Assembly: GCF_003994255.1 (NCBI RefSeq)
Contig: NZ_ML133855.1
Coordinates: 124,001-188,000 of the forward strand
DNA length: 64,000 nucleotides
Direction of reading: 5' to 3'
Source: Brachybacterium paraconglomeratum
GTDB taxonomy: Bacteria; Actinomycetota; Actinomycetes; Actinomycetales; Dermabacteraceae
The position numbers were made by a program, and so were the translations under genes. Shown here one piece after another: positions 3,691 to 43,764 of the stretch. Under the pieces are notes generated by a model, which searched no databases, had not been told where the DNA came from, and saw only the letters and a program-made list of their open reading frames with translations. Within the stretch, counting starts at the first letter, position 1. The number at the start of each line of letters is the position of its first letter.

Positions 3691-3807
3691 ACGGGGCCTG
3701 CCTGCGGCCCCTGATGCGGTTGCCCTCTGAGTCCATCTCGCCGCGCTGCTCGTCCGCCGAACGGGTGACTGCGAGGAATGCTCCCCGGGGTGGCTACTCT
3801 CGGGGTC

Positions 3808-7559: not shown

Positions 7560-7588
7560 CGTCCCCACCCTCGAGGAAGCGAACACCT

Positions 7589-8761: not shown

Positions 8762-8828
8762 GAGAGCCGGGACGGCTCAAGGGGCGAGCACGCAAGACCG
8801 GGTTCACCGAAGGATGAGGGAGAGATCT

Positions 8829-17309: not shown

Positions 17310-17591
17310 GGGGAGGGCTCCTCGCAGCGGCGGCCTCGCTCACAGGGCGCGGCGGGCATGCGCTGGTGTGGTGTCGTGTGGGAGGACGATAGGCAATCGG
17401 GCTTGCCGGGACCGTGCTCTCTCATGTCCTGGACGTGCACAGTTGGATAACGATCTGCCATCGCGAGGTGCGCGGGCAGGAGCCGTGCCCCGAGGATCGT
17501 GGAGGCTTCACGTCAGGGGGCAAGCCCTCGAGCGCAGGGTACTGTCCCTTCAGCGCACAGACGATCTGCGACGAAGGGGGCGGGACGGAGC

Positions 17592-18515: not shown

Positions 18516-18518
18516 CCC

Positions 18519-20392: not shown

Positions 20393-20435
20393 GGCAGTCG
20401 ACATGAGACCGACGCCGGCTACCGGAGCGCAAGAA

Positions 20436-20452
20436 CGTACTCTCGCAGTACG
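20436..20452. promoter_or_regulatory. Small inverted repeat upstream of the first AsnB-like gene
   Basis: CGTACT (20436-20441) and AGTACG (20447-20452) form a 6-bp dyad with a 5-bp spacer in the 102-bp gap before the GTG at 20495. It could be an operator or part of a promoter region. No clear -35/-10 pair was found, so the role is uncertain. Confidence 0.25.
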
Positions 20453-20494
20453 AGCCCGCACGGCTCGGTCGAGGTGAAGTGAAAGGCTGATCGG

Positions 20495-22246
20495 GTGAAC
20501 ATCAATCTCGGTGTTGCGGCGATATCGGAGCACGGTTGCGCTATGCTGCCGCGGCTTTGGGACGAGGCGCTTCGCATCGGTGGCGAGGCGTACGACCTCG
20601 ACACTGCGATCGTGCGCAGGACCCCTCGTCGTGCGACGTTGAATGCACAGTTCCTGGAGAAGACGTGGGAGGTGCCGACCTGGCTGGAGGACGAGCACGG
20701 CATCCTGTCCTTGTCCCAGCCTCCGGTTTCCTACACGACAGAGGTTCCTCGTTCCGGGTGGGAGCGGTGGGCGCTCGACACCCTCCGTACGGACGAGGGG
20801 CGTCGGACCGTGCACCCCGGATACCTCGGTATCGCCCACTGGAACGATGACGGCATGGAGCTGTGGAACGACTACTTCGGGTTCGCCCGTGCCTTCGTCG
20901 TCCACAACGAGCACTTCGTCGCCGTAGGCAATCACATCGGCATGCTCGCGATGTTCGCGGACCAGCCGATCGAAGCCGACGATTACGGGGCCGACGTGTT
21001 CGCGCAGCTCGGCTTCTGGCCGGAGGAGAACTCACCTTTCACCGGGATCCGCCGGCTGTCGGCAGCTGAAGTGATCGCGGTGGGGACCCACGACGAGGTA
21101 TCGATCCGTCGCTACACGCAGCTCGAGGAGACCTTTGGCCACCGGGACAGCATCCCTGACATCGAGGCCGCCGCTCGGTCGCTCGCCACGTCGACGTCCA
21201 ACATCGGTGAAATCGCGTCTCGCCGTCCCCGCGTGGACCTCTCCGGCGGACAGGACTCGCGCCTGACGGCTGCGGCCTGGATCGCCGGAGGGCATCCGGG
21301 GCTGGTCCACACACTGGGAAATCTGCAGGGAGAGGCGGACATCGCCTCGGAGCTCATGGATGTCCTCGCCGCCGAGCGGCCGCTCGAGGATCGAGGGCTC
21401 TCGCATCAGATCGTCCACTCGGATCCGAAGCGCAACGCGAGGTTCTCGCTCGAGGAGCGGCTCGAGGCGGGTATGCGCCAGTGGGACGGGGATTTCGCGC
21501 ACATCAACCTCAAGGCCCCGATCAAGCGCCCGCCTCGGGTCAGCGCTTTCGCCGTCGGCGGAGGGAACGGAGAGGTGATGCATCCTCTCTACTACTCGAC
21601 GCCGCACATCCTGAAGAAGGTCAGGGAGTTCCCCCACCCGCTCTGGCGGGTCCCCCAGGCGCTTCCTCCCCGCTGGAACACGGATCGCGCGATCGCTCAC
21701 ACGGACCTCTACATCAGTCGGCAGGTCGAGGAGATGCAGTCGATCGGCCAGCACGATGCTTCGTCGCTGAACGTTTTCCAGATGATGGGGAAGTTCCGCC
21801 GTTGGCCGAGCTCGCAGCTCGTGGGCTCCGCCTTCGTCCTCCTTCTCAACCCCGTCTTCGTGCGGTCGGCCATCGATCTCACCCCCGAGCAGCGAGTGGA
21901 GAAGACGATGCAGCGCGCACTCACCGAAGAGCTCGTGCCGCGGTGGTCCGGCATCCCGTACTTTAAGGGTGGGGTCTCAGATTTCAAGAAATCTGAGATC
22001 GTCCAGGCGAACCGCATCTGGAACACATCGCCGGGGTCAATGGAGCGGCTGCTGCACGAGCGCTCGAACTGGAAGGGCGCCTTCGACGAGACGAAGATGC
22101 TCGAACTCGAGCAGGTGGTCCACTCCGGTGAGGCCGCCACAGTGCAGGAGTCGACGCTCAACAAGGCATTCATCGTCGACGCTATCCCTGACCACGCGTC
22201 GTTCCTCGAGACTGCTCGCAGACGAACCTGGTCCGGTATCGCGTGA
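20495..22246 (+). CDS. Asparagine-synthase-like protein 1 with degenerate glutaminase domain
   Basis: This 583-residue protein has the two-part layout of class B asparagine synthetase. The C-terminal ATP-pyrophosphatase domain carries the PP-loop DLSGGQDSRL (248-257). The N-terminal half keeps landmarks of the Ntn glutaminase fold (NDYFGFARAFVV, about 125-136, where AsnB has its DxxG..PLY segment). It lacks the catalytic Cys at position 2: it begins M-N-I-N. Glutamine hydrolysis is therefore unlikely, and free ammonia or another nucleophile may be used. AsnB-like proteins in sugar clusters, such as WbpS, amidate uronic acids. Amidation of a hexosaminuronic acid is a reasonable but untested role here. 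Start is GTG. A GT4 gene and a second AsnB-like gene follow on the same strand. Confidence 0.8.
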   Translation: MNINLGVAAISEHGCAMLPRLWDEALRIGGEAYDLDTAIVRRTPRRATLNAQFLEKTWEVPTWLEDEHGILSLSQPPVSYTTEVPRSGWERWALDTLRTDEGRRTVHPGYLGIAHWNDDGMELWNDYFGFARAFVVHNEHFVAVGNHIGMLAMFADQPIEADDYGADVFAQLGFWPEENSPFTGIRRLSAAEVIAVGTHDEVSIRRYTQLEETFGHRDSIPDIEAAARSLATSTSNIGEIASRRPRVDLSGGQDSRLTAAAWIAGGHPGLVHTLGNLQGEADIASELMDVLAAERPLEDRGLSHQIVHSDPKRNARFSLEERLEAGMRQWDGDFAHINLKAPIKRPPRVSAFAVGGGNGEVMHPLYYSTPHILKKVREFPHPLWRVPQALPPRWNTDRAIAHTDLYISRQVEEMQSIGQHDASSLNVFQMMGKFRRWPSSQLVGSAFVLLLNPVFVRSAIDLTPEQRVEKTMQRALTEELVPRWSGIPYFKGGVSDFKKSEIVQANRIWNTSPGSMERLLHERSNWKGAFDETKMLELEQVVHSGEAATVQESTLNKAFIVDAIPDHASFLETARRRTWSGIA

Positions 22247-22555
22247 TGCGCAGCCGGCTACCGAAGGACGGCCGACGACGCCGTTTCATCTGAGGCCGAC
22301 GTCGGGCATGCGACCGCCCCTCGGTGGTTCACTCGGCGACAGCCCCGTCGGTGCGTTTCCCAGGTGGGTGCGCGCTGGCGGGATGCTCTGTCGCGGGCGG
22401 ACGGGCGAGCAGCTCGTCCTCCCTACACACCTCCCGGGAGCTGTGCGCAGTGATACACCTGCGGGCGTGTTCGGGGGACGGCGTTCGATCGATATCATCA
22501 GTGCGGCGCACCGACTGCCGTGCCGCCCACAGTCCTGACCGAGGAGAGAAGAGCC
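22247..22555. other. Intergenic stretch of 309 bp without a gene
   Basis: I see no protein-like reading frame here. A TATCAT hexamer (22493-22498) could be a -10 element for the glycosyltransferase at 22556, but no convincing -35 lies at the right distance. The ribosome site GAGGAGAGAAG ends the stretch. Confidence 0.3.
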
Positions 22556-23833
22556 ATGCGTATTGCGGCCGTCGTCCACAACGGGGTCAAGCATGATGCG
22601 CGAGTCCTCAAGGGGGCGGCGTCCCTCAAGGCACAAGGACACGACGTGCGACTGTTCGGGCTCACCGCCGACGAGTCCGAGGACTTCGTGCTTCCGAACG
22701 GCATCCCCGTCCACCTTCAGCACAGGGATCTGTCGGATCTGAAGCCGCGCGTCGAGCGCGAGGATCTGCCCAAGGGGCGTGTGAGCTCGATCTGGACGTC
22801 TTTCCGGATTCAGGGCGAGACAGTCTTCGAGAGCGTGCGATCGACGTTCGTGCCGGACATCGTCCACATGCACGATCATCTGACCCTCGCCGCCGCGGCG
22901 ATGTACAAAGAAGCGTTCGACGTGCCGATCATCTGGGACGCTCATGAGATCTATGAGGACCTGGCGAGCATCGAGCCCGAGCGTGCCGCGGTGAACTCAC
23001 GCATCATCGCCGACAACGTCCAGTACGTCGATGGCTTCATCACCCTGAACCAGAGCATCGCCGACTTCTACCGTGAGAAGTACGAGGCCCTGCCCGAGGC
23101 GGTCTTGGTCCCCAACGCGGTCGAACGTGTCACGCAGACCAAGTACGACGGCCGTCTGCACGAGGCGGCTGGTCTGGAACCCGAGCAGAAGATCCTCCTC
23201 TTCCAAGGCGGCTTCTCGCCGCACCGCGGCATTCCCGCGCTCCTCGAGGCGTCGAAGCTTCTGCGGGAGGACTGGTCGCTGGTGTTCATGGGCTGGGGGA
23301 AACTCGAGGAGAGCATCCGTGAGTACGCCGAGTCCGAGACCGACAGGCCCGACGGTCGAGCGCGGGTGGCAGCCGTGCCCAGTGCACCTCACGACGAGCT
23401 CCTGAGCTGGACGGCCGGGGCCGCTCTCGGCACGATCCCGTACGAGAACACCGGTCTCAATCATCTCTACTGCTCGCCGAACAAGTTGTGGGAGTATCCG
23501 GCGGCCGGAGTGCCGATCCTGGCGACCGACATGCCGGAGATGGAGAAGCAGATCAAGAAGTACGGGATCGGTGTCACGTTTCCCATGGCACTCGACCCGG
23601 CGCAGATCGCCGACACGGTCAATGCCCTCAGCGATGCCGATCTCGAGCAGATGGCGGCGAACTGCGCGACCTACGCGGCCTCGGAGAACTGGCAGAAGTA
23701 CGAGGGTCGGCTCATCTCACTGCACGAGCGGGTCTCTGGCGTGCAGGAGGAGAAGGGGCCGGGGGCAGGAGCTGCGGAGCGGGCACCGGCGACACTCTGG
23801 TCCAAGGTCGTCGACTTCTTCCGGGGGCGGTGA
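22556..23833 (+). CDS. GT4-family glycosyltransferase
   Basis: This 425-residue GT-B glycosyltransferase has no signal peptide or membrane span. The first domain begins RIAAVVHNGVKHDARVLKGA. WDAHEIYEDL and ITLNQSIADFYRE mark the inter-domain region. The donor domain has VPNAVER, LFQGGFSPHRGI, PYENTGLNHLYCSPNKLWEY (the EX7E-like region) and AGVPILATDMPEM. It resembles the second half of the tandem glycosyltransferase at 8829 (compare LYQGGLVPGRGLD and ALPNKIFEY), so these are paralogues. The ATG at 22556 follows a strong GAGGAGAGAAG. The next gene begins 3 bp after its stop, which couples it to the second AsnB-like protein. Confidence 0.88.
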   Translation: MRIAAVVHNGVKHDARVLKGAASLKAQGHDVRLFGLTADESEDFVLPNGIPVHLQHRDLSDLKPRVEREDLPKGRVSSIWTSFRIQGETVFESVRSTFVPDIVHMHDHLTLAAAAMYKEAFDVPIIWDAHEIYEDLASIEPERAAVNSRIIADNVQYVDGFITLNQSIADFYREKYEALPEAVLVPNAVERVTQTKYDGRLHEAAGLEPEQKILLFQGGFSPHRGIPALLEASKLLREDWSLVFMGWGKLEESIREYAESETDRPDGRARVAAVPSAPHDELLSWTAGAALGTIPYENTGLNHLYCSPNKLWEYPAAGVPILATDMPEMEKQIKKYGIGVTFPMALDPAQIADTVNALSDADLEQMAANCATYAASENWQKYEGRLISLHERVSGVQEEKGPGAGAAERAPATLWSKVVDFFRGR

Positions 23834-23836
23834 ACC

Positions 23837-25609
23837 ATGTCGAGCAGCCAGTTCATCCTCGCCTACGCCTGCGAGCGTAAGGAGGAGATGTCCGCGGAAG
23901 AGCTCGCGATCCGGTGGAACGCGGCGACGCGCCATCTTGAGGACGTCGCGGCCACGAGCCTCGAGTTTTCTAGGGCCGGCGACGGGAGGACCGGCTTCGC
24001 GGTATGGCAGCACGCGCGAAAGGTCATGACATGGCCGATGTTCGCCGAACGCGGGGGAGAGGCTGCAGGGTGGCTGCACGTCCCGGCGGCCGCGGGGAGA
24101 CCTGAGGATGGCGTCGATGCTGTCGAGCTCGCGCGTGGTCTGTCCACCGGTGCGATCGATCGCGTCACGATGGGGGCACCTGCAGCGGCCGTGCACTGGT
24201 CCGAAGACGGCCTGCGGATCGTCAACGACCGCCTCGGGATGGTCCGTCTCTACGAGATCGTCGTGCCAGGTTTCGGCATGGTCTGGAGCAGCAGACCGGG
24301 GCTAGCGCACATCTTCGCCGGACTTCAGCCAGCGCTGTCGCAGTCGACCTGGAACGACATGGCGACGCTCGGATGGCCCTCACATGGCACAGCGCACCTG
24401 GGCAACGGCGGACAGATGCCGGCGAGCACCTCGGTCCATGCGGGTGCGGACGGGACGACGAGCTCGCAGTGCGACCGGGACGAGTGGATCCGTTCCATCA
24501 TCGAGGACGGCGTCCCGTCACTCGCCGAGGGTGGACTCGGCATGGTCGACTCCTTGAGCACCGCCGCGTGGTGGGAGGGGAGGCCCGTGGCAGACCTCTC
24601 CGGGGGGAAGGACTCGAGGGTGACCGCCGCTGCGGCCATCCGTGCCGGAGTGGTCGATACAGTGAGGACCGTCAACACGGACACGGGCGAGGTGGAGGCC
24701 GCTCGTCGTCTTCTCGCGCTGGCCGGCGATCCGGTCCGCCATCGCGTGGACAGCGTCGTCGAGCCGAAGAAGCCGGAAGGTTCGGCGATGGATCGATACA
24801 TCTCCATGCAGCGGGCATGGGAGGGTGCATACAACGCGCGGTCGGCGTATCGCTCCAGGCCGTTCACCGGGTTCCGTCCCGCGTCGGCGCCGCGTATCAA
24901 CGGTCTCGGCGGCGAAGCGGTCCAGGGACGCACTCTTCTCAACCCGGCGTGGGAGAAGAAGATGACAGATCAGGGCGCGGAAGTCGGACGGGAGCGGCTC
25001 ACGCAGATGGTCCGGTCCGGCGGCGGCGGAGTGGGGGGCGAGGTCATCGAGGACTCCGTGGCCTCGACGCTCCGACTTGCTGATCAGTCCGGGGAGGTCG
25101 GCCTCCAGTCCGCGTTCAACGTGGTCGACTTCTTCTACCATTTCAGCAAGATGCCGTACTGGTCGATGCCCCAGGCGACGGGGAGCACTCTGCTGCCTTT
25201 CTACGCGCCGCAGATGCTCCCGCGCACGATGTGGGCGATTCCGAATGCCATGACGGAGTATGGGCGGCTGCACCGAGACGTTCTGCGGGAGCTGATGCCG
25301 CAGTGGGCCGACGAGCCGTTCTACAAGGGCTCGGCCAGGACGCGTGCGACTCCCTGGATGTGGGAGAACGCGGACTGGGAAGGTATCGAGCCCCTGATCA
25401 TGGAGGGTGCCGCGGCACTGGAGACGTTTTCCCTCCAGGAGATCGAGAACTTCATGGGCAAAGTGCGTGACGGCGGAGGGAACGGTCGCCACGAGACCGC
25501 CTTCGCTCGCGTACTGTGGGAGATGAGCTTCCGGGAGTATGCGGACGAGATTGGCCGCCAGGCAGCCGCGACGTCGCGGGAAGTCGAGCGCGTACGCACC
25601 GGTAATTAG
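23837..25609 (+). CDS. Asparagine-synthase-like protein 2 with degenerate glutaminase domain
   Basis: This 590-residue protein is the second AsnB-type protein of the locus. The PP-loop is DLSGGKDSRV (253-262). The N-terminal half retains the glutaminase-fold landmark VNDRLGMVRLYEIVVPGFG (129-147) followed by a VWSSRPGLAHIF strand, as in AsnB (DxxG..PLY, then the ASE.K motif). It starts M-S-S-S, so the catalytic Cys2 is missing. Overall similarity to the protein at 20495 is moderate, mainly around the PP-loop and a PxxxW.....FYKG region (WADEPFYKGSA here, GIPYFKGGVSD there). The two seem to be diverged paralogues. The intimate linkage to the GT4 gene (3-bp gap) suggests that the AsnB-like proteins modify the sugar chain or its precursor. 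Substrate unknown. Confidence 0.8.
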   Translation: MSSSQFILAYACERKEEMSAEELAIRWNAATRHLEDVAATSLEFSRAGDGRTGFAVWQHARKVMTWPMFAERGGEAAGWLHVPAAAGRPEDGVDAVELARGLSTGAIDRVTMGAPAAAVHWSEDGLRIVNDRLGMVRLYEIVVPGFGMVWSSRPGLAHIFAGLQPALSQSTWNDMATLGWPSHGTAHLGNGGQMPASTSVHAGADGTTSSQCDRDEWIRSIIEDGVPSLAEGGLGMVDSLSTAAWWEGRPVADLSGGKDSRVTAAAAIRAGVVDTVRTVNTDTGEVEAARRLLALAGDPVRHRVDSVVEPKKPEGSAMDRYISMQRAWEGAYNARSAYRSRPFTGFRPASAPRINGLGGEAVQGRTLLNPAWEKKMTDQGAEVGRERLTQMVRSGGGGVGGEVIEDSVASTLRLADQSGEVGLQSAFNVVDFFYHFSKMPYWSMPQATGSTLLPFYAPQMLPRTMWAIPNAMTEYGRLHRDVLRELMPQWADEPFYKGSARTRATPWMWENADWEGIEPLIMEGAAALETFSLQEIENFMGKVRDGGGNGRHETAFARVLWEMSFREYADEIGRQAAATSREVERVRTGN

Positions 25610-25697
25610 CTGTGAGCATGGATCGCGCCACGAATGGGATTGCGATCTTGCAGTATTCTTGACAGTTCCAGTGAGCATGAGGTGGGTGAGGTGGGCC

Positions 25698-27023
25698 GTG
25701 ACTTCCGAGATCGAGTACATCACGAATGAGGCGGAGGTCGGGCTCCCCCCGCTGCAGTCGTCCCGGCGGACGGTGTGGAATTATTACAGGATCGAGTTCC
25801 TGCCCCACGGGTACCCCGGCCGGCGCACGGGCGATGTGCTGTATGCCCACCCGATCTACGGCCCGTATGTGATCGCGGACTACATCGCGCAGTACCGCCG
25901 GACGAAGGATGACGTGTTCCTGGAGGCCGCCAAGCACGTCACAGACGCCGCGGTCGAGCAGATGACCCCGGTCGGGGACGGCCTGGCGTTTCTGTACAGC
26001 CAGGACAAGACTGCTGTCTCCTCGAGGTCGCACACGTTCTACAGCGGTCTGACGCAGGCCCGTTACGTCGAGTGCCTCAAGAACTTGGTGCAGCTGCCCG
26101 ACACCGAACGGTTCCAGGAGCCCCTCTCCCGGGTCCTGAAGAGTCTTCTCGTCCCTGCCGAGGAGGGAGGTGTGGCGCGCTACACCGATGATGGTGGGCT
26201 GATCATCGAGGAGTACCCGTCGCTCGCGCCCGATTGCACCTTGAACGGTTGGACGACCGCCACAGTCATCCTCCGCGACTATGCGCGGCTCACCGGTGAT
26301 GAGTTGGGGTGGGAGATCTTTCGGAAGTCCGTCCGCGGGCTGGAGCGGCTGATCCCGATCTATGACGTGCCTGAGCTGGCCAACTCCCGGTACCGTCTTA
26401 CCGGTGTGGCGTCGATCCAGGTCGCGGCGAAGGGGGCCGATCTCGAAGTCGTCGACTGCGAGGTCGAGATGCCAGGCAGCGGCACCTTCTCCGCGAAGGA
26501 TGTGCGGGATCCCGCGGGCGAAGCGCTGAAGTCGGGCCCGAGGCACGTGGCCGATGGCAATGCGGAAGCGCTGGTCCTGTCGCTGAGCCGTCTGACCTGG
26601 CCCACGCCGAACACCGTCCACCTCACGATCCGCGCCTCCGAACCGGGCGAGGTGATGCTCGGCATCGGCGATGGCGAGTACTCCCCGATGTCGAAGGATC
26701 TCCCCGTCTCCTCCTTCCGAGAACTCGCCACGGTGCCGGTCGAGGCCGGTGAGAACCGAGTCTCAGTGGCGATCCCCTGGAATGATGCGGAGCTCGTCTC
26801 CTACCCGACGGGCTTCGGCAAGGCGCTGGCCGGTCGGCAGTTCAATCAGTACCACTGGATTCATGTGGACACCCTCGGGAAGATCGTCGAGGAGACCGGC
26901 AGCGATATCCTTGCTTACTACCGTGAGAAGTGGATGCGTTACCCGGAGAAGTGGCCGGAGATGCCGCAGTACCAGGATGAGCGGATTACTCTCGAGCGCT
27001 TCGACCCGAAGAGGCATAAGTAG
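25698..27023 (+). CDS. D-glucuronyl C5-epimerase-like protein
   Basis: This protein of about 441 residues matches the C-terminal domain of heparan sulfate-type D-glucuronyl C5-epimerases. Conserved phrases are HTFYSGLTQARYVE (about 112-125), LIIEEYPS (about 168-175), TLNGWTTATVILRDYARLTG (about 182-201), IYDVPELANSRY (about 220-231) and YHWIHVDTLGKI (about 384-395). In these enzymes the same region forms the (alpha/alpha) barrel and inverts C5 of a uronic acid within a polymer. A beta-rich insertion of about 140 residues (236-375) splits the helical domain. No signal peptide is present, so the enzyme should act in the cytosol before export. The GTG at 25698 (behind GTGAGGTGG) is chosen over ATG 25677. 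Its 3' end overlaps the convergent gene by 38 bp. Confidence 0.8.
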   Translation: MTSEIEYITNEAEVGLPPLQSSRRTVWNYYRIEFLPHGYPGRRTGDVLYAHPIYGPYVIADYIAQYRRTKDDVFLEAAKHVTDAAVEQMTPVGDGLAFLYSQDKTAVSSRSHTFYSGLTQARYVECLKNLVQLPDTERFQEPLSRVLKSLLVPAEEGGVARYTDDGGLIIEEYPSLAPDCTLNGWTTATVILRDYARLTGDELGWEIFRKSVRGLERLIPIYDVPELANSRYRLTGVASIQVAAKGADLEVVDCEVEMPGSGTFSAKDVRDPAGEALKSGPRHVADGNAEALVLSLSRLTWPTPNTVHLTIRASEPGEVMLGIGDGEYSPMSKDLPVSSFRELATVPVEAGENRVSVAIPWNDAELVSYPTGFGKALAGRQFNQYHWIHVDTLGKIVEETGSDILAYYREKWMRYPEKWPEMPQYQDERITLERFDPKRHK

Positions 27024-28491: not shown

Positions 28492-28775
28492 CGGGCTTTC
28501 CCCCTACTTCGGTCGACAGCGACTGAATCACTCAGGAGCTGGACGATAGTGTCTTGGTCCGAGGACTGCTGGTCGTTCCATGGAGTCAGGCGAGCACGTC
28601 GACGACACCGTCAGAGTCCTCCGCGGCGGTCGCGACCGCCCTTCGCGTGAAGAGCGGCCGCAGTTCACGATCCGTTGTCGCCGTCATGTGATCGAAGTGC
28701 GACGCTGGCACCGGTCTCCGTCGAGCGCTGCAGTCCCGGGGAGCCTATCCTCGAAATCTGTGGACGAGGACCGGT

Positions 28776-29837: not shown

Positions 29838-30065
29838 GACGCTCCACAGTAGCGGGCGAGCACAGTTCGGCTCAGTTTCCTCCCGATCGTGGGGTGGCGT
29901 GGGATCCGGCCGGCGGGCCTGAAAGTGAAACAGCGGGTGAACACCGCGAAATGAGCAGCGAGTCACACGGGTGATGAGAGCCCTCACCGGGGTGGTGGAG
30001 GTCGAGGATCACGTATCGTCGGGAGTGCGTCATCCACGCCGATATCCGTCATCGAAAGGCTCACC

Positions 30066-31391
30066 GTGAAGACTGCTGTTGTCGCCCTGGGGAAGATCGG
30101 GCTGCCGCTCGCGGTGCAGTTCGCTGATGCCGGTCATGAGGTGATCGGCGTGGACGTGAACCCGGGTCAGGTGGAGCTCATCAACAAGGGGACCGAGCCC
30201 TTCCCCGGTGAGGCGCACTTGCAGGAGAAGCTCTCCGAGCTGGTCCCCGCCGGGAAGCTCCGCGCGACCACCGACTACGCCGAGGCGATCCCGGGGGCGG
30301 ACGCGGTCGTGATCGTCGTCCCGCTCTTCGTGGACGACGCCACCTGGGCACCGGACTTCGGATGGATGGACGCCGCGACCCGTTCGCTGGCCGAGCACCT
30401 CACTCCCGGCACCCTCGTCTCCTACGAGACGACCCTGCCCGTGGGCACCCTGCGCACCCGCTTCGTGCCGATGATCGAGCAGATCTCGGGGCTGAAGGAG
30501 TCCGAGGGCTTCTTCGCCGTGTTCTCCCCCGAGCGCGTGCTGACCGGGCGGGTCTTCGAGGACCTGCGCAAGTACCCCAAGCTCATCGGCGCGCTGACCG
30601 AGGAGGGCGCCCGTCGGGCCCGCGAGTTCTACGAGTCCGCGCTCTCCTTCGACGAGCGTCCCGACCTCACGCAGCCCAACGGCGTGTGGGACCTCGGATC
30701 TCCCGAGGCGTCCGAGCTGGCAAAGCTCGCCGAGACCACCTACCGGGACGTGAACATCGCGCTCGCGAACGAGTTCGCGCTGTTCGCGCAGGACCACGGC
30801 ATCGACGTGTACAAGGTCATCGAGGCCAGCAACTCCCAGCCCTACTCGCACATCCACCAGCCCGGCATCGCCGTGGGCGGGCACTGCATCCCCGTCTACC
30901 CGCGGCTCTACCTCTCGGGCGACCCGTCGGCGACCACCGTGCGCACCGCCCGAACCCTGAACGCCTCGGTGCCCGCCTTCCTCGTGGAGCGGGCTGCGAG
31001 CCTGCTCGGCTCCCTGAAGGGCCTGAAGGCTGTGGTGCTCGGCGCCTCCTACCGCACCGGCGTGAAGGAGACCGCGTTCTCCGGCGTGTTCCCGGTCGTG
31101 GATGCGCTGCGTGGGCACGGGGCCGACGTCGCGGTGCACGACACCTTTTACGACGACGAGGAGATCCGCGGCTTCGGCTGGGATCCCTACACGATCGGCG
31201 ACGCCGCGGACCTCGTGATCGTCCAGACCAATCACCCCGACTACCGCGAACTCGGCAGCGAGGACGTGCCCGGAGTGAAGCTGATCGTGGACGGCCGCAA
31301 CATCACCACCGCCGAGAACTGGGCCGGCACCCCCCGCCTCGTGCTCGGCGACGGCTCCACCTCCACCCACCAGCAGGCCGAGGAGGCCTGA
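30066..31391 (+). CDS. Nucleotide-sugar 6-dehydrogenase (WbpA/WbpO-like)
   Basis: This 441-residue enzyme is an NAD-dependent UDP-sugar dehydrogenase, which oxidises C6 to a carboxylate in two steps. The Rossmann start is VVALGKIGLPLAVQFADAG (5-23), with the canonical GxGxxG altered to GKIG. The middle domain carries FSPERVLTGRVFEDL and LAKLAETTYRDVNIALANE (catalytic Lys220, Asn230). The catalytic cysteine is Cys274 in AVGGHCIPVYPRLY. The genes that follow (acetyltransferase, aminotransferase, oxidoreductase) make this most likely the UDP-GlcNAc 6-dehydrogenase that opens the UDP-ManNAc3NAcA pathway. Start is GTG at 30066. The next gene follows after about 150 bp. Confidence 0.9.
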   Translation: MKTAVVALGKIGLPLAVQFADAGHEVIGVDVNPGQVELINKGTEPFPGEAHLQEKLSELVPAGKLRATTDYAEAIPGADAVVIVVPLFVDDATWAPDFGWMDAATRSLAEHLTPGTLVSYETTLPVGTLRTRFVPMIEQISGLKESEGFFAVFSPERVLTGRVFEDLRKYPKLIGALTEEGARRAREFYESALSFDERPDLTQPNGVWDLGSPEASELAKLAETTYRDVNIALANEFALFAQDHGIDVYKVIEASNSQPYSHIHQPGIAVGGHCIPVYPRLYLSGDPSATTVRTARTLNASVPAFLVERAASLLGSLKGLKAVVLGASYRTGVKETAFSGVFPVVDALRGHGADVAVHDTFYDDEEIRGFGWDPYTIGDAADLVIVQTNHPDYRELGSEDVPGVKLIVDGRNITTAENWAGTPRLVLGDGSTSTHQQAEEA

Positions 31392-31485
31392 CTAGTCGGA
31401 AGAGAAGCATCGAACGGTGTATGAACGCAACATGATCAGGGCAGCTGTACCGATCAGCCGACAGATCTATAAGCAAGGGGAATCA

Positions 31486-31515
31486 CTTGCCTGTGTCCGG
31501 CTTGCCTGTGTCCGG
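31486..31515 (+). repeat. Perfect 15-bp tandem duplication
   Basis: CTTGCCTGTGTCCGG occurs twice in immediate tandem (31486-31500 and 31501-31515), 25 bp upstream of the acetyltransferase start. It probably arose by replication slippage and changes the spacing of the leader. Confidence 0.85.
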
Positions 31516-31540
31516 GGCGCGGCGCGGTATCGTCGGGCCC

Positions 31541-32218
31541 ATGGCTGACACCCCTTCCTACCGGGTCGCCCCGGGGGCGGACATCTCGGACGACGCGACT
31601 ATCGGGGACGGCAGCGCGATCTGGCATCTCGCGCAAGTGCGGGAGGGGGCCCGGCTCGGCGCGGGTTGCATCGTGGGCCGTGGCGTCTACATCGGCTCCG
31701 GGGTGCGGATGGGCGATGGCTGCAAGGTCCAGAATTATGCCCTGGTCTACGAGCCCGCAGTGCTCGCCGACGGCGTGTTCGTGGGGCCTGCGGCGGTGTT
31801 CACCAACGACCATTTCCCCCGTGCCGTGAATCCCGACCTCTCCCCGAAGTCCGCTTCGGACTGGGAGCCTGTGGGTGTGACCTGCGAGACGGGCGCCTCG
31901 ATCGGTGCCCGTGCGGTGTGCGTCGCCCCGGTGACCATCGGTGCCTGGGCGATGGTCGCCGCCGGCGCGACGGTGGTCAAGGACGTCCCTCCGCACGCCC
32001 TGGTCGCCGGGGTGCCGGCGCGGCGTCTGGGCTGGGTGGGCCGCTCCGGGGAGAAGCTGGTCCCGGCCTCCGACGGCACCGATGCCTGGGTGTGCCCCAC
32101 CACCGGTGACTGGTACGTCCCCGATGACTCCACCGGCGGGCTGCAGCTCGCCTCCGCATCCGCGGCCGGCGCATTGCGTCCGGCCGCCCCCGACGAACAG
32201 GACGGACCTATCGCATGA
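31541..32218 (+). CDS. wlbB: UDP-3-amino-sugar N-acetyltransferase (WbpD/WlbB-like)
   Basis: This 225-residue left-handed beta-helix (hexapeptide repeat) acetyltransferase has repeats such as IGDGSAIWHLAQVREGARLG and VRMGDGCKVQNYALVYEPAV. The family-specific loop FTNDHFPRA (about 87-95) is the place where WbpD/WlbB enzymes read FTND.YPR. The coil ends with GVPARRLGWVGRSGEKL, also typical. WbpD enzymes acetylate the 3-amino group of UDP-GlcNAc3NA using acetyl-CoA. The C-terminal tail (about 175-225) with TDAWVCPTTGDWYV has two Cys-Pro/Trp-type elements. The ATG at 31541 has only a weak ribosome site. The stop overlaps the next start (ATGA), coupling it to the aminotransferase. Confidence 0.88.
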   Translation: MADTPSYRVAPGADISDDATIGDGSAIWHLAQVREGARLGAGCIVGRGVYIGSGVRMGDGCKVQNYALVYEPAVLADGVFVGPAAVFTNDHFPRAVNPDLSPKSASDWEPVGVTCETGASIGARAVCVAPVTIGAWAMVAAGATVVKDVPPHALVAGVPARRLGWVGRSGEKLVPASDGTDAWVCPTTGDWYVPDDSTGGLQLASASAAGALRPAAPDEQDGPIA

Positions 32219-33324
32219 GCACCGAACTCGACTTCATCCCGCCGGCCAAGCCGATCATCGGCACCGAGGAGCGGGAGGCGGTGGATCGTGTGCTCGCTTC
32301 CGGGATGGTCGCCCAGGGCCCCGAGGCCGCCGCGTTCGAGCAGGAGTTCTCGGCCGCGCTGGTGGGCGGTCGCGAGGTCGTCGCGGTGAACTCCGGCACC
32401 TCCGGGCAGCATCTGGGGATGCTGGCGCTGGGGCTGAAGCCGGGCGATGAGGTGATCGTGCCGTCCTTCACCTTCGCGGCGACCGCGAACTCGGTGGCCG
32501 TCTCCGGTGGGGTGCCGGTGTTCGTGGACGTGGACCCCGAGACCTTCACCCTCGATCCTGCCGCGGTCGAGGCGGCGGTCACCGAGCGCACCGTCGGCAT
32601 CCAACCGGTGCATCTGTACGGGCACCCGGCGTCGATGGATCAGCTGGTGGAGATCGCGCAGCGGCACGGGCTGTGGCTCTTCGAGGACGCGGCGCAGGCG
32701 CACGGTGCGACCTGGAACGGTGCGCAGGTGGGCACCTTCGGTGACGCGGTGATGTACTCGCTGTACCCGACGAAGAACATGACCTCCGGTGAGGGTGGCA
32801 TGGTCGGCTGCGCCTCGAGCGAGACCGCACGTCAGGTGCGGCTGCTGCGCAACCAGGGCATGGAGAAGCAGTACGCGAACGAGGTCGCCGGATACAACAA
32901 CCGCATGACCGACATCCACGCCGCGATCGGTCGCGTCCAGCTGGGCAAGCTCCCCGCCTGGACCGCGACCCGTCAGGCGAACGCCGCGTTCTTCGACGCG
33001 CACCTCGAGGGGGTGGTGACGCCGGTGGTCCGTGAGAACGCGAGCCACGTCTACCACCAGTACACGGTGCGCATCGAGGGCGCCACCGCCGCGGAGCGCG
33101 ACGCCTTCGCGACCGCGCTGCGCGAGGAGCACAAGGTGGGCTGCGGCGTCTACTACCCCACGCCGGTGCACCGTCTGGAGACCTTCCAGATCGACCTGGA
33201 CCTGCCCGTGACCGAGCTGCTCGCACGCGAGGTGCTCTCGCTGCCGGTGCACCCCTCGCTCTCCGAGCTGGACCGCGAGCGGATCGTCGCGGCCGTGAAC
33301 ACCGTGGCGAAGGCAGGAGCCTGA
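32215..33324 (+). CDS. wlbC: UDP-3-keto-sugar aminotransferase (WbpE/WlbC-like)
   Basis: This 369-residue aminotransferase of the DegT/DnrJ/EryC1/StrS (PLP-dependent) family has its Schiff-base lysine at Lys187 in YPTKNMTSGEGG. Other landmarks are NSGTSGQHLGM (phosphate binding), PSFTFAATANSV, FEDAAQAHGA (Asp stacking the cofactor) and the C-terminal LPVHPSLSE. WbpE/WlbC transfers an amino group from glutamate to the 3-keto group of UDP-3-keto-GlcNAcA. Close homology to DegT enzymes that act on other keto sugars cannot be excluded by eye, but the four-gene context is specific. Start is ATG 32215 overlapping the acetyltransferase stop. The oxidoreductase follows 2 bp after the stop. Confidence 0.9.
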   Translation: MSTELDFIPPAKPIIGTEEREAVDRVLASGMVAQGPEAAAFEQEFSAALVGGREVVAVNSGTSGQHLGMLALGLKPGDEVIVPSFTFAATANSVAVSGGVPVFVDVDPETFTLDPAAVEAAVTERTVGIQPVHLYGHPASMDQLVEIAQRHGLWLFEDAAQAHGATWNGAQVGTFGDAVMYSLYPTKNMTSGEGGMVGCASSETARQVRLLRNQGMEKQYANEVAGYNNRMTDIHAAIGRVQLGKLPAWTATRQANAAFFDAHLEGVVTPVVRENASHVYHQYTVRIEGATAAERDAFATALREEHKVGCGVYYPTPVHRLETFQIDLDLPVTELLAREVLSLPVHPSLSELDRERIVAAVNTVAKAGA

Positions 33325-33326
33325 TC

Positions 33327-34340
33327 ATGACCACGAAGACACTGCGGGCCGGACTGATCGGCCTGGGCATGATGGGCCGCCACCACGCCCGCAACCTCCG
33401 CGCACTCGACGGTGTCGATCTCGTGGCGGTCGCCGATGCGCAGGGCGATCCTCATGGCGCCGCGCCCGGGCTCGACGTCCTGCCCGATGTCGACGCGCTG
33501 ATCGCGGCCGGCATCGACTACGCGATCGTGGCCGTGCCCACCCAGTTCCATCGCGATGTCGCACTCGCGCTCGCCTCGGCCGGGATCCACACCCTGGTCG
33601 AGAAGCCGCTCGCCTTCGACATCGGAGAGGCCGAGGAGATCACCGCCGCCTACGAGACGGCGGGGCTGGTCGGCGCGGTGGGGTACATCGAGCGGTACAA
33701 CCCAGCGCTCCAGGCGATGCGCAAGCGCATCGCCGAGGGGCAGCTGGGGGAGATCTACCAGATCGTCACCCGTCGTCAAGGGGCGTTCCCCGCGCGTATC
33801 CGCGACGTGGGAGTGGTCAAGGACCTCGCCACTCACGACCTCGACCTCACCGCCTGGGTCGCGAAGTCGCAGTTCTCTTCCGTCGCCGCCACATCTACAC
33901 GGCGCTCGGGACGGCAGGACGAGGACATGGTGTCGATCACCGGTCAGCTCGAGGACGGAACGATCACGAACCATCTGGTGAACTGGCTGTCCCCGTTCAA
34001 GGAGCGGGTCACCGTGGTCACCGGGGAGAAGGGAGCCCTGATCGGCGACACGCTGAGCGCGGACCTCACCTTCCACGCCAACGGGGAGACCGCCACGAAC
34101 CTGTGGGAGTCGATGGCCTCGTTCCGCGGGGTCAGCGAGGGTGACTCGATCACCTATGCCCTCCAGCGCAAGGAGCCGCTGGTGACCGAGCACGAGGCCT
34201 TCCGCGACGCGGTCCTCGGTGATGCCTCGAACATCGTGACCATGCGCGAAGGCCTGCACACCGTGCGAACCGTCGAGGCCGTGCTCGAGTCGGCGGAGAC
34301 GGAGCAGTCGGTGGCGCTGGGCGGATCAGTCCGGGCCTGA
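33327..34340 (+). CDS. wlbA: Gfo/Idh/MocA oxidoreductase, UDP-GlcNAcA 3-dehydrogenase-like (WbpB/WlbA)
   Basis: This 337-residue NAD(P)-dependent oxidoreductase opens with LIGLGMMGRHHARNLRAL (10-27) as the Rossmann motif. It has VEKPLAF (about 90-96, the conserved EKP) and GYIERYNPAL, then KDLATHDLDL with the catalytic histidine. WbpB/WlbA enzymes oxidise C3 of UDP-GlcNAcA to the 3-keto sugar. The GYIERYNPAL phrase is one that I associate with this subfamily. Order and spacing (dehydrogenase, acetyltransferase, aminotransferase, oxidoreductase) strongly support the pathway call. The heparinase-like gene follows 99 bp downstream. Confidence 0.88.
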   Translation: MTTKTLRAGLIGLGMMGRHHARNLRALDGVDLVAVADAQGDPHGAAPGLDVLPDVDALIAAGIDYAIVAVPTQFHRDVALALASAGIHTLVEKPLAFDIGEAEEITAAYETAGLVGAVGYIERYNPALQAMRKRIAEGQLGEIYQIVTRRQGAFPARIRDVGVVKDLATHDLDLTAWVAKSQFSSVAATSTRRSGRQDEDMVSITGQLEDGTITNHLVNWLSPFKERVTVVTGEKGALIGDTLSADLTFHANGETATNLWESMASFRGVSEGDSITYALQRKEPLVTEHEAFRDAVLGDASNIVTMREGLHTVRTVEAVLESAETEQSVALGGSVRA

Positions 34341-34439
34341 TGCTCGGCCTGCTGCCCCCGTGAGCCCGCGCGGCAGACGCCGCGCCCAGGTCTGCTCAAT
34401 ACACTGGGCAGGACAGAGAACATCACTGGAGGTCCTTAC

Positions 34440-36176
34440 GTGTCTGCCCGAGGCGTCGCGAACGTTGCCGAACTGGATCTCGGCGTCGCCGAACGCCAGG
34501 CATTCGGCACCGTGTACGGAAAGCCCGCCAAGCACGAACTGCTGGCCAAGCTCGTCAAGGGTGGGACGTTGCGTCTTCCGCCGCACCCCAACTGGACAGG
34601 TGACACGACCGATTGGACCGCCGATCCCTACGGCGACCGGAACTGGCAGTTCCAGCACCACACACTCCGGTGGCTGAATCCGCTGCGATGGGCCGCGCTC
34701 GAGGGGGACGAAGAGGCCGCCACCGAATGGCGTCGCGTCGCGAGATCCTGGGCCGAGGCGAACATCCCCGCGAAGCGCGCCCGCGGGGTCTTCGCGTGGA
34801 AGGACATGGCAGATGGCAACCGTGCCATCCAGCTGAGCCTCGGCGCACCGCTCATCCGCCCGGAGGACGACTGGTACATCTCCTCGATCCGCTACCACGT
34901 CGAGTGGCTCATGGACGAGGACCACATCGTCCAGAAGAACCACGCGCTCCACCAGCACTCAGGGCTCGTCGTCGCCGCTGCCCTCCTCCGTGATGAGACG
35001 GCGCTGGACATCGCACACGCCCGAATGGTCGCTCAGTTCGGCAGCACGTTCGACAGCCAGGGTGCGAACGACGAGGGCGCCACCGGATACCACGAGATGA
35101 ACCTGAAATGGTGGGGCCAGGCGTGGCAGCGGGTGAAGGTGGAGGGCCTCGAGATACCGGCCACGGTCGAGGCCCAGCTCGCCGCCGGTCGCGCCGCTCT
35201 GGCGCAGCTCGTGCTCCCCGACGGCACGCTCTCGCAGATCGGCGACACCAAACGGGTTCCCGTCTCGCGAGGGCTCGGGCCGGAGGTCGAGTACGTCGCC
35301 ACCCAAGGTGCCGAAGGCACGCCCCCTCGGGAGACTGCAGTCGCCTTCGACCGTGGGTACGTCGTCTCACGCAGCGGTTGGGGCACGGACCGCCCTCTGG
35401 CCGACGAGTCACACATGATCGTGCGCTTCGGCCACGACGTCCTCTCCCATTCGCACCAGGACCGGGGCAGCGTGCACCTGTATACGCGTGGCCGCCCTTG
35501 GTTGACGGACAGCGGCTTCTTCAGCTACCAGACAGGGGACCTGACCCGCACGTACTTCCTGTCCCCCGAGGCGCACAATGTCGCGAGACTCCCCGACCAC
35601 GCTCATTCCTTGCGCGCCGAGGTCGAGCTCGAGAGGTTCGAGGCCACCGCGGATGTCCATGACATCCTGCTTCGTGATCACGGGTACCGGGACGTCGAGA
35701 TGCGTCGCAGGATCCTCTACCTCACGGGTCCCGACTGCTGGATCATCTGGGACCAGGTCTCCGAGCCGTCGAGCATCGAACAGAACTGGATCGTCGACAT
35801 CGGAGTGAGGATGCGCCGCCACGATCGTGGGTTCGAACTCCTGGCAGAGGGGCAGTCGATGACGATGACCTGGCTCGGCAACGTTCCCGCCTTCTCTCGC
35901 CACGTGGCGAAGGAAGGTGATCCCCACGGCTGGATCGCGACGAAGTGGAAGACCCTGGAACCAGCGACGGCCCTGACAGCCCGGACGTCACACAATCGCC
36001 AGCGGTGCGTGGTCCTCATCGCCCCGTCGGCGCCGCAGGAGCTCGCCGTGGTGCGCTCCTACATCACGACTGCCGGCCGACTCACCATGGTCGTCACACG
36101 AGGTCCCCGTGTCTGGGAGGTCGCTGTCGACGAGGCCGAGCTGAGCATCGCCGAGCTGGAGCGCGATTGGACCTGA
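34440..36176 (+). CDS. Heparinase II/III-like protein without signal peptide
   Basis: This 578-residue protein has the two-part heparinase II/III layout. An (alpha/alpha) toroid (about 60-270, with GANDEGATGYHEMNLKWW and DGTLSQIGDTKRVP) is followed by a beta-sandwich domain. The latter contains the motif SHSHQDRGSVHLYTRGRPWL, then DSGFFSY and FLSPEAHNV. In lyases the SH..D...F/L...G...L.D.G pattern carries catalytic and metal residues. Heparinase II/III proteins cleave uronic-acid polymers by beta-elimination, but homologues in biosynthetic loci may have other roles. No signal peptide or membrane span is visible, so it seems cytosolic. The GTG at 34440 follows GGAGG with good spacing. It is convergent with wecC, with an 18-bp gap. 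Confidence 0.85.
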   Translation: MSARGVANVAELDLGVAERQAFGTVYGKPAKHELLAKLVKGGTLRLPPHPNWTGDTTDWTADPYGDRNWQFQHHTLRWLNPLRWAALEGDEEAATEWRRVARSWAEANIPAKRARGVFAWKDMADGNRAIQLSLGAPLIRPEDDWYISSIRYHVEWLMDEDHIVQKNHALHQHSGLVVAAALLRDETALDIAHARMVAQFGSTFDSQGANDEGATGYHEMNLKWWGQAWQRVKVEGLEIPATVEAQLAAGRAALAQLVLPDGTLSQIGDTKRVPVSRGLGPEVEYVATQGAEGTPPRETAVAFDRGYVVSRSGWGTDRPLADESHMIVRFGHDVLSHSHQDRGSVHLYTRGRPWLTDSGFFSYQTGDLTRTYFLSPEAHNVARLPDHAHSLRAEVELERFEATADVHDILLRDHGYRDVEMRRRILYLTGPDCWIIWDQVSEPSSIEQNWIVDIGVRMRRHDRGFELLAEGQSMTMTWLGNVPAFSRHVAKEGDPHGWIATKWKTLEPATALTARTSHNRQRCVVLIAPSAPQELAVVRSYITTAGRLTMVVTRGPRVWEVAVDEAELSIAELERDWT

Positions 36177-36194
36177 CGCTCTCGGGGCCGTCGC

Positions 36195-37448
36195 TCAACG
36201 CCACAGCCCCCTGGTGTCGATCAGCACCTTCTCCCGCAACCTGTCGCGGTCGAAATTCTTGAACGGCGTGTGGTCGACCAGCAGCAGCACGATGTCGGCT
36301 CGAGAGACGGCGTCGTCCATCTCGGTGAGCTCGACGTTGTCGCGCCCGTCGAGCTCGGAGGGGAGCTGGTCGATGTTGGGCTCGACGACGAGCACCACCG
36401 CGTCCGGCAGCTGATCAGCGAGCGCGATGCAGATCTCCTTCGACGGGGACTCTCTCAGATCGTCGATATCCGGCTTGAATGATATCCCGAGTGCCGCGAC
36501 GGTCGGTTTCTTGAATCGGTCGGCCCTCTCGAGGACCTTGCGAAGAACGTGGTCGGGCTTCGCGTCGTTCACCTCTCGGGCGGTGGCGATCAATCGCGAG
36601 GCCTCGGGTTCGGCCGCGACGATGAACCACGGATCCACTGCGATGCAATGACCGCCCACCCCCGGGCCGGGCTTCAGGATGTTCACCCGGGGGTGATGGT
36701 TCGCCAGCTCGATCAACTCCCACACGTCGATGCCTTGGCGCTCGGCGATGATCGAGAGCTCGTTGGCGAAGGCGATGTTCACGTCCCGGAAGGCGTTCTC
36801 GGTCAGCTTCGCCATCTCGGCGGTGCGGGCGTCGGTGAGCAGCAGCTCCCCGTGGCAGAAGCTCGCGTAGAGATCTCGTGTCAGCTCCGCTGCTTCCGGG
36901 GTCGTCCCTCCGATGATGCGGTCGTTGTCGACCATCTCGATCATGATCCGACCGGGCAGCACGCGTTCGGGGGCATGGGCGAAGTGCAGGGAGGCAGGCG
37001 ACCCCGGCGCGTCCGTGAGATCAGGGCGCGCGCGGAGCAGCACACCCGCCATGTGCTCGGTGGTCCCCGGGGGCGATGTCGACTCGAGGACGATCAGCTC
37101 GCCTCCCTCGAGTCTCGGGGCGATGCTCTCGGCGGCCGATTCGATGTAGGAGAGGTCGATCGCGCGATCGCCCCTGAAGGGGGTGGGGACGGCGACGATG
37201 TACGCGTCTGCTCGAGGCATGACCGTCCCCGCCGAGAGCCGACCCTGGGCCACGACCCCGGCGACCACCGCCTCGAGCCCCTCCTCGGCGAAGGGGACTC
37301 GTCCGTCGTTGATGGCGTCGACGGTGGTCTGCTCCACGTCGACCCCGACGACGGTCTTGCCGGCCTGCGCGAGCACCGCGGCCGTCGGCAGGCCGATGTA
37401 CCCCAGCCCGACCACACAGACGGTGTTCAAGGGGATTCGTGGGGTCAT
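36195..37448 (-). CDS. wecC: UDP-N-acetyl-D-mannosamine dehydrogenase
   Basis: This 417-residue nucleotide-sugar dehydrogenase has Rossmann motif GLGYIGLP (14-21), FAHAPERVLPGRIMIEMVDN (about 156-175), KLTENAFRDVNIAFANE (Lys214) and catalytic Cys268 in GVGGHCIAVDPW. The phrase A.ERVLPG....E.V.NDR.IGG is the WecC hallmark. WecC oxidises UDP-ManNAc to UDP-ManNAcA. The matching epimerase WecB is at 7589, far away on the other strand. The ATG at 37448 follows CCAGGAGACTCC. It differs clearly from the dehydrogenase at 30066, supporting two distinct uronic acids. A 208-bp gap separates it from the upstream glycosyltransferase. Confidence 0.92.
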   Translation of the reverse strand: MTPRIPLNTVCVVGLGYIGLPTAAVLAQAGKTVVGVDVEQTTVDAINDGRVPFAEEGLEAVVAGVVAQGRLSAGTVMPRADAYIVAVPTPFRGDRAIDLSYIESAAESIAPRLEGGELIVLESTSPPGTTEHMAGVLLRARPDLTDAPGSPASLHFAHAPERVLPGRIMIEMVDNDRIIGGTTPEAAELTRDLYASFCHGELLLTDARTAEMAKLTENAFRDVNIAFANELSIIAERQGIDVWELIELANHHPRVNILKPGPGVGGHCIAVDPWFIVAAEPEASRLIATAREVNDAKPDHVLRKVLERADRFKKPTVAALGISFKPDIDDLRESPSKEICIALADQLPDAVVLVVEPNIDQLPSELDGRDNVELTEMDDAVSRADIVLLLVDHTPFKNFDRDRLREKVLIDTRGLWR

Positions 37449-39123: not shown

Positions 39124-39251
39124 GGATGACCTCCGACGGTGAACGGTGGGAGTCCAGTCTACGGTCGGCGCCGGTGCGGATCGCGGTGCCCGTAGCCTGG
39201 TCGCGGCCCTGATCGGCAGGGAGAGCTCGGGGCGGGGAGATGCGAGGGACG

Positions 39252-40435: not shown

Positions 40436-43764
<3,329 letters not shown>

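Follow-up and report, generated by a model that had tools for sequence, protein, structure and literature searches.

The glycan locus analysed here lies in a 64,000-nucleotide stretch of the Brachybacterium paraconglomeratum genome (G000:C5:124001-188000; the whole stretch is called the window below) and includes a gene for a protein resembling the D-glucuronyl C5-epimerase of animals, GLCE. The window protein shares with animal GLCE the PF06662 domain and five catalytic residues, but it belongs to a subfamily with an insertion, it is encoded near genes for a diacetamido-mannuronic acid, and it has no hydrophobic N-terminus. A bacterial C5-epimerase, RED65_08024, is described in the accessible part of PMC4432689. 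According to the available portion of PMC13274773, a teichuronic acid containing 2,3-diacetamido-mannuronic acid (ManNAc3NAcA) and the utr gene cluster are established in Streptomyces griseus. The UDP-ManNAc3NAcA pathway there is the same and likewise sits in an actinobacterial wall-polymer locus, but none of the roles which that portion gives for utrA-J is that of a C5-epimerase, a heparinase-like or an AsnB-like protein, unlike the window locus. The Vibrio cholerae polysaccharide VPS contains N-acetyl-L-gulosaminuronic acid (L-GulNAcA) amidated with glycine, and C5 inversion of N-acetylmannosaminuronic acid (ManNAcA) has been proposed; the accessible text of PMC3901696 assigns no enzyme to the inversion or the amide. 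Marine bacteria provide ManNAc3NAcA joined to L-alanine and a gulo-configured diacetamido-hexuronic acid (PMC3210612, in the part available). In Porphyromonas, the AsnB-type amidotransferase WbpS, encoded beside wbp genes, amidates a diacetamido-uronic acid (PMC7468200, available extract); the window proteins are also AsnB-type with wbp neighbours, but they have no match to the WbpS family in NCBIfam at E<=0.01 and lack Cys2. In the literature searched, which left most subscription papers outside it, we recognised no enzyme assigned to chain-level C5 inversion of these sugars.

We read the locus as encoding a teichuronic-acid-type wall or capsule polysaccharide, with an acquired cassette that edits the chain in the cytosol before export; we regard this account as evenly poised between right and wrong. 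In this model, GT4 glycosyltransferases would build a chain containing ManNAcA and ManNAc3NAcA in the cytosol. The epimerase would act on the chain as it grows, inverting D-mannuronic-type residues at C5 and giving L-GulNAc3NAcA (the diacetamido-L-guluronic counterpart) or L-GulNAcA, a role that we infer from its intact catalytic residues and its linkage. The AsnB-like proteins, lacking a glutaminase of their own, would use ATP to join uronic carboxyls to ammonia or an amino acid. The heparinase-like protein would trim the chain by lyase chemistry or act as a second C5-epimerase of the dermatan sulfate (DS) epimerase type, and the Wzm/Wzt pair would export the edited chain. Substrate, order of steps, amide chemistry and the sharing of one polymer are presumptive. 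A more general proposal, that the insertion-bearing GLCE subfamily comprises chain-level C5-epimerases converting ManNAc3NAcA or ManNAcA to the L-gulo form, coupled in this locus to capping by glutaminase-less AsnB proteins in the cytosol before export, is tentative, and we lean somewhat against it.

An earlier note on this DNA had described, within positions 20495-37448, two AsnB-like proteins, a D-glucuronyl C5-epimerase-like protein, a heparinase II/III-like protein, an unassigned helical protein and genes for hexosaminuronic acids. Open reading frame (ORF), family or fold checks at those coordinates found every one of these proteins in that span (Table 1).

A GLCE-like epimerase with an inserted stretch

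The epimerase-like protein, at 72.1 bits, is above the PF06662 (C5-epim_C) gathering score of 23.3 bits. Its start is uncertain: the longest ORF overlaps that of AsnB-like 2 by 71 bases. Its phmmer match to GLCE of zebrafish has E 8.2e-5 and that to the human enzyme a marginal E 0.019; the alignment to the animal proteins covers the helical part only, not their N-terminal beta-hairpin and beta-sandwich domains. A bacterial PF06662 protein (G419) aligns to human 6hzz over the whole C-terminus (E 1.4e-48). Human residues were placed by counting in that alignment and then carried over through an alignment that includes G419. The count recovers the E499, Y500 and N510 given in the accessible part of PMC13308652, with Y560 falling in IYDLRH and Y578 in WDYH. 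All five catalytic residues are thereby present in the window protein, with E225, Y226, N236, Y285 and Y438 equivalent to human E499, Y500, N510, Y560 and Y578. Two other candidate motifs, QYH for Y560 and KWMRY for Y578, were rejected when the human alignment placed both elsewhere.

When the epimerase alignment was used to scan GTDB species genomes, 95 pattern matches and 29 loci resulted; two plasmid loci, two contigs from a viral collection and the window bring the subfamily loci analysed to 34. The residue count and the tree took 26 of the 34, leaving out partial or weak cases (L053, L070, L074, L075, L076), one with a split reading frame (L068) and the viral-collection pair (L077, L078). 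E499 and N510 are retained in all 26 proteins, Y560 and Y578 in 25 each and Y500 in 18. The spacing between Y560 and Y578 is 134-160 residues in the subfamily versus 20 in the G419 control, and we read the roughly 150 extra residues between the catalytic tyrosines as an inserted domain. Judged by these alignments, the window epimerase is a member of a dispersed bacterial PF06662 subfamily marked by this insertion. Two Streptomyces members (L065, L066) have longer ORFs, of 625 and 604 residues, with Leu replacing Tyr500. The viral-collection contigs L077 and L078 carry homologues of 55% and 32% identity.

Sugar supply and export

From family membership and gene order, WecB and WecC are assigned to the synthesis of UDP-ManNAcA, and WbpA, WbpB, WbpE and WbpD with WecB2 to that of UDP-ManNAc3NAcA. 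The sugars indicated by the locus are thus ManNAcA and 2,3-diacetamido-mannuronic acid, which would put its chemistry nearer to a D-manno to L-gulo inversion than to editing of glucuronic acid (GlcA) to iduronic acid (IdoA). The hexosaminuronic acid genes of the earlier note are borne out by a wbp-type set at 30066-34340 and by WecC. Its description of the chemistry as glycosaminoglycan-like is not supported as it stood, as both locus dehydrogenases score higher as UDP-HexNAc/ManNAc dehydrogenases than as UDP-glucose dehydrogenases. For the WbpA-like enzyme, UDP-ManNAc dehydrogenase models rank next after TIGR03026, below cut-off, and the protein stays below every equivalog cut-off. A UDP-glucose dehydrogenase identity for the protein at 36195-37448 was rejected because it exceeds the WecC equivalog cut-off. 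Classical GlcA-to-IdoA editing would fit PF06662 itself, the family of C-terminal domains from D-glucuronyl C5-epimerase; given dehydrogenases that fit HexNAc/ManNAc substrates, one of them over the WecC cut-off in a search confined to the locus, we consider it hardly credible.

The proposal of ABC export is supported by a Wzm/Wzt pair at 5612-7559 (+), although it lies upstream of the span described earlier. The Wzt gene was absent from the calls based on codon-position G+C and was found as an ORF with a Walker A motif. It belongs to the single exporter seen in the scanned part of the window (about 3.8-45 kb); the ABC genes at 17499-20392 were considered and rejected as importer-type. Consistent with the earlier claim that the editing proteins lack signal peptides, none of the five candidates shows a hydrophobic N-terminus by Kyte-Doolittle hydropathy, the sole method applied (no signal-peptide predictor was used); 19-residue maxima within the first 60 residues are 0.15-1.17.

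Linkage of the epimerase to diacetamido-mannuronic acid genes

Neighbourhoods were compared over 10 kb around 33 subfamily loci (window excluded), with WbpB homologues counted above 40 bits and some contigs ending sooner. The 18 controls were stretches around other PF06662 matches, all from one order; subfamily members (the window's own, G013, G285:C32) and weak or fragmentary matches (G194, G070, G242) were left out. WbpB lies within 10 kb at 10 of 33 subfamily loci and at none of the 18 controls (Fisher p 0.009, kinship ignored). WecB2 does so at 15 of 33 and one of 18 (p 0.004, kinship likewise ignored). Mapped onto a 27-protein tree, the linked label changes 6 times, compared with 9.4 for shuffles, and 7 of 500 shuffles were as low. 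Linked loci fall in four parts of the tree: the window's Micrococcaceae/Microbacteriaceae group, Occultella (of the same order as the window organism), Bacilli and Proteobacteria. For these labels, L057 was counted as linked through WbpA, WbpD and WbpE without WbpB, the Tersicoccus WbpB is 15 kb off and those of two Occultella are 25 kb off. Outside the tree, wbp genes are present at L068 and L074.

Whole-genome searches covered 25 of the 29 GTDB loci (all except L053, L070, L075 and L076). A WbpB of at least 55% identity occurs in 11 of these 25 genomes. In six of the 11 it is on the epimerase contig within about 26 kb (Agrococcus, Tersicoccus, where the match contains an internal TGA, Nesterenkonia, Glycomyces and two Occultella); in the other five no WbpB lies within 10 kb of the epimerase (Paenarthrobacter, Arthrobacter, Jiangella and two Streptomyces). 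Agrococcus terreus has, in about 27 kb, homologues of WecC, WbpA, WbpE, WbpB, WecB2, AsnB-like 1, GT4b, the epimerase, the helical protein, WecB1 and Wzm. On two alphaproteobacterial plasmids the epimerase accompanies independently annotated dehydrogenase, Gfo/Idh/MocA, DegT, 2-epimerase and exporter-permease genes. Homologues of GT4b (about 41-72% identity) were found in Agrococcus, Nesterenkonia, Tersicoccus, Burkholderiaceae, Accumulibacter and the two plasmid loci.

AsnB-like proteins without a glutaminase cysteine

Both AsnB-like proteins carry the PP-loop motif SGGxDS, as SGGQDS in AsnB-like 1 and SGGKDS in AsnB-like 2. Family models add little: at E<=0.1 Pfam gave no meaningful match for either, NCBIfam gave a weak TIGR01536 match for AsnB-like 1 (E 0.0034) and no other amidotransferase model for either, the WbpS and eps_aminotran models did not match at E<=0.01, and a profile search against PDB returned only beta-lactam synthetase, below significance (E 0.44). 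The AlphaFold2 model of AsnB-like 2 (medc47f467d9e; predicted local distance difference test score, pLDDT, 87.1) matches the AsnB/beta-lactam-synthetase family over both domains, with Foldseek hitting 1mbz (E 1.9e-12) and VIA-align 7ylz (Z 20.1), 1ct9 (Z 17.8) and 1m1z (Z 16.2). The model thus indicates a two-domain fold of an N-terminal nucleophile (Ntn) domain and a PP-loop ATPase. For AsnB-like 1 the fold is predicted from its alignment to AsnB-like 2.

The glutaminase Cys2 is absent from both window proteins, whose first Cys are at residues 15 and 12, and the ORF list offers no earlier start codon for either. Among 14 aligned AsnB-like members, 13 have no Cys in the first six residues, the exception being L090 with Cys at position 5. 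For L100, which is among the 13, the count was made from an upstream start, and counting from the homologous start likewise gives no Cys. The glutamine-hydrolysing half is therefore probably inactive, and amidation by ordinary AsnB chemistry, as the earlier note had it, is not supported. Beta-lactam synthetase and carbapenam synthetase have the AsnB fold and activate a carboxylate without glutamine. They share that fold with the AsnB-like 2 model (Z 15-16), but genomic setting and presumed substrate differ. By analogy, the window proteins likely activate a carboxylate with ATP, with ammonia or an amine as acceptor.

AsnB-like 1 has a homologue of 57% identity in Agrococcus terreus. AsnB-like 2 was found in one of the 25 epimerase genomes searched, Occultella glacieicola, where the homologue (61%) adjoins the epimerase; another, of 31% identity, adjoins the helical protein in G717. 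None of AsnB-like 1, AsnB-like 2 and the helical protein had a match when plasmids were searched.

Heparinase-like and helical proteins

The heparinase-like protein matches heparinase III chains of family PL12 (E 6.6e-12 to 4.7e-8) and heparinase II (E 0.0074). Its N167, Y217 and H337 align with the Asn, Tyr and His of 4mmi, a PL12 heparinase III, which we take to be the catalytic residues of that enzyme. Heparinase domains and triad are thus common to both, but the window protein has no hydrophobic N-terminus and sits in a biosynthesis locus. The window protein may also resemble DS-epimerase 1. Lyases and C5-epimerases both abstract the C5 proton, so it may be either. Among epimerase genomes a strong match is found in three of 25 and one at E<=1e-8 in five; in Tersicoccus and Arthrobacter, 10 kb or less separates the gene from that of the epimerase. 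In one genus member (G720, L107:2388-5261) the heparinase-like ORF is extended at its C-terminal end by a stretch in which we read a GNSGGG motif like that of alpha/beta-hydrolases.

The helical protein is modelled with confidence as an (alpha/alpha)6 fold (me83bcddcff1a; pLDDT 89.0, predicted template modelling score, pTM, 0.91). Foldseek returned only two matches at E<=0.001, and the profile search gave only weak ones, GH76-type among them. VIA-align Z values are 24.3 for cellobiose 2-epimerase, 23.1 for the unsaturated glucuronyl hydrolase 1vd5, 22.7 for YteR and about 21 for GH76; with values so tied, no family stands out from the model. The residues D92, H262, E372, D373 and H376 (numbered without the first Met) are invariant in the homologue alignment. 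Close homologues (42-56% identity) occur in Agrococcus terreus, Nesterenkonia sphaerica, G717 and G199, and a WbpB homologue lies within about 12 kb of the helical gene in all five genomes, the window's included. The protein is present in two of the 25 epimerase genomes, with the epimerase nearby in both. Distant homologues vary in setting: one in G277 (21% identity) has wbp genes nearby, and for two in G245 the stretch read holds no WbpB or WbpD and generic WbpE-type matches only. By our reading of the alignment, some distant homologues (L082, L084, L085) have N-termini resembling twin-arginine (Tat) signals.

Alternatively, mis-made or recycled polymer could be degraded in the cytosol by a turnover set made up of the heparinase-like protein as a lyase and the (alpha/alpha)6 protein as an unsaturated glucuronyl hydrolase. 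The lyase triad and the Z value with 1vd5 are what such a set would predict; the same Z value is tied with those of 2-epimerases and GH105, and Agrococcus and Nesterenkonia have the helical protein with no heparinase-like match at E<=1e-8. We find turnover quite improbable.

A modular locus in the genus

Of 38 genus genomes, 30 have WbpB, two the helical protein and one the epimerase. Relatives of AsnB-like 1 were found in 12 of 396 genomes of the order, eight of them in the genus (the window's own included), and five of seven genus relatives have two each. In the loci of four relatives (G011, G711, G720, G764), WecB1, the double GT4, the heparinase-like gene and an AsnB-like gene are always present, Wzm in three and WecC in two; the stretches read contain no epimerase or wbp gene in any of the four. 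WecB1, a glycosyltransferase, the heparinase-like and AsnB-like genes and, mostly, the exporter therefore recur in the genus; genes for the epimerase, AsnB-like 2 and the (alpha/alpha)6 protein are additions to this locus, and rare ones. A further member, G199, groups genes for WecC, the heparinase-like protein, the helical protein, WbpA/E/B, WecB1, Wzm and rml functions in one place, with no epimerase. Of its two WbpB copies (C1:2252535-2253521 and 3015338-3016306), only one belongs to the locus of the helical protein.

The locus is thus an assembly of modules, the genus core and a diacetamido-mannuronic module with the epimerase, GT4b, AsnB-like 2 and the helical protein. The lower G+C content of parts of the window and the sporadic distribution suggest acquisition by transfer. 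G+C is 0.645-0.69 in each 2-kb bin of 4001-14000 and 20001-30000, and at least 0.71 in 11 of 13 bins from 38001 to the window end and in both bins of 1-4000. As a whole, these genes do not travel together: the epimerase is linked to ManNAc3NAcA-type genes in several lineages, but the neighbourhood comparison does not show the set moving as one unit, given heparinase-like/AsnB-like loci in the genus without epimerase and the rarity of AsnB-like 2 among epimerase genomes.

A rival account has two polymers, in which the core WecB, WecC, heparinase-like, AsnB-like 1 and ABC genes serve a ManNAcA polymer, the wbp genes, GT4b and epimerase serve a ManNAc3NAcA polymer, and the two gene groups have come together here in one chromosomal region. 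The four relatives' loci, which show no wbp or epimerase gene in the stretches read, agree with this, as do G011 and G720, where WbpB is distant from the AsnB/heparinase locus on the same contig (1.86 versus 1.10 Mb, and 1.24 versus 2.17-2.18 Mb). The single exporter in the scanned part of the window speaks against it, as do the presence of both sugar pathways in one locus in Agrococcus and Tersicoccus and of WecC, WecB1 and WbpA/E/B together in G199. We judge two polymers unlikely.

Several observations weigh against our preferred reading of a single chain edited before export. The AsnB-like activity is drawn from fold only. Two or more of WbpB, WbpD and WbpE lie within 10 kb at 12 of 33 subfamily loci and 6 of 18 controls (p 1.0), and one control (L131) has close WbpA and WecB2 homologues. 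The tree covers the subfamily, with the 18 controls outside it. Within 10 kb, 18 of 33 subfamily loci lack WecB2 and 23 lack WbpB, so other epimerase substrates probably exist; the Arthrobacter and Paenarthrobacter epimerases have no wbp genes in that range. The excess of WbpB over the epimerase in the genus also means that such sugars are made without it.

Gene layout

Genes in the window (G+C 69.7%, in a genome of 3.78 Mb) were called by codon-position G+C and then checked with Pfam and NCBIfam profiles.

Table 1. Features of the glycan locus, in window coordinates
Feature	Coordinates	Strand	Evidence
GT4a glycosyltransferase, core locus	3778..5658	+	PF13692 87 bits; homologues adjoin Wzm in G011, G720, G764
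ABC exporter permease, Wzm/KpsM type	5612..6544	+	PF01061 38 bits; NF050109, NF050053 below cut-off
ABC exporter ATPase, Wzt/TagH type	6525..7559	+	Walker A motif; TagH/Wzt models 158-172 bits, below equivalog cut-offs
WecB1, UDP-GlcNAc 2-epimerase, start uncertain	7355..8761	+	TIGR00236 442.6 bits, cut-off 210
Double-GT4 glycosyltransferase	8634..12461	+	PF00534 in two stretches
WecB2, second non-hydrolysing 2-epimerase, possibly WbpI-like	13068..14132	-	TIGR00236 254 bits, cut-off 210
AsnB-like 1, PP-loop SGGQDS, no Cys2	20495..22246	+	Alignment to AsnB-like 2
GT4b glycosyltransferase, frequent epimerase companion	22520..23833	+	PF13579 42.7 bits
AsnB-like 2, PP-loop SGGKDS, no Cys2	23837..25609	+	Fold matches of AlphaFold2 model medc47f467d9e
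C5-epimerase-like protein, PF06662 subfamily with inserted stretch, start uncertain	25539..27023	+	72.1 bits
(alpha/alpha)6 helical protein, no family match	26986..28491	-	Model me83bcddcff1a
Protein with one strongly hydrophobic stretch	28776-29987	-	Hydropathy
UDP-HexNAc dehydrogenase, WbpA-like	30066..31391	+	TIGR03026 294.8 bits, over cut-off
Hexapeptide N-acyltransferase, WbpD-like	31487..32218	+	PF00132; NeuD/PglB family 76 bits, below cut-off
DegT aminotransferase, WbpE-like	32215..33324	+	PF01041 393 bits
Gfo/Idh/MocA oxidoreductase, WbpB-like	33327..34340	+	PF01408; NF040723 UDP-GlcNAc 3-dehydrogenase 198 bits, below cut-off
Heparinase II/III-like protein	34440..36176	+	PF07940 and PF16889, both over cut-off
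WecC, UDP-ManNAc dehydrogenase	36195..37448	-	NF008286 556 bits, equivalog cut-off 459
GT4c glycosyltransferase, core locus	37657..39123	-	PF00534 117 bits

The glycan locus is interrupted at 14142-20392 by an amidohydrolase, a glutamate-type symporter and a nitrate/sulfonate-type ABC importer. Downstream of GT4c are rml genes, and at 42283-43764 RmlC-type and RmlD-type domains are fused in one protein. The hydrophobic-stretch protein at 28776-29987 (-) has a distant paralogue at 39240-40322 (+) (25% identity over 197 residues, E 1.4e-8), which likewise has one strongly hydrophobic stretch and no family; relatives of this paralogue lie near heparinase-like genes in the genus members G011, G199 and G711.

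Implications

Polysaccharide chemistry has already revealed L-guluronic forms of amino- and diamino-uronic acids, as well as amides of these with amino acids (accessible parts of PMC3901696 and PMC3210612). For the C5 step that would form such sugars, the insertion-bearing subfamily offers an expressible candidate, and the AsnB-like proteins would be a second family of candidates, for making the amide. The subfamily is also relevant to the ways in which actinobacteria diversify wall polymers recognised by lectin-guided toxins, as treated in the available portion of PMC13274773.

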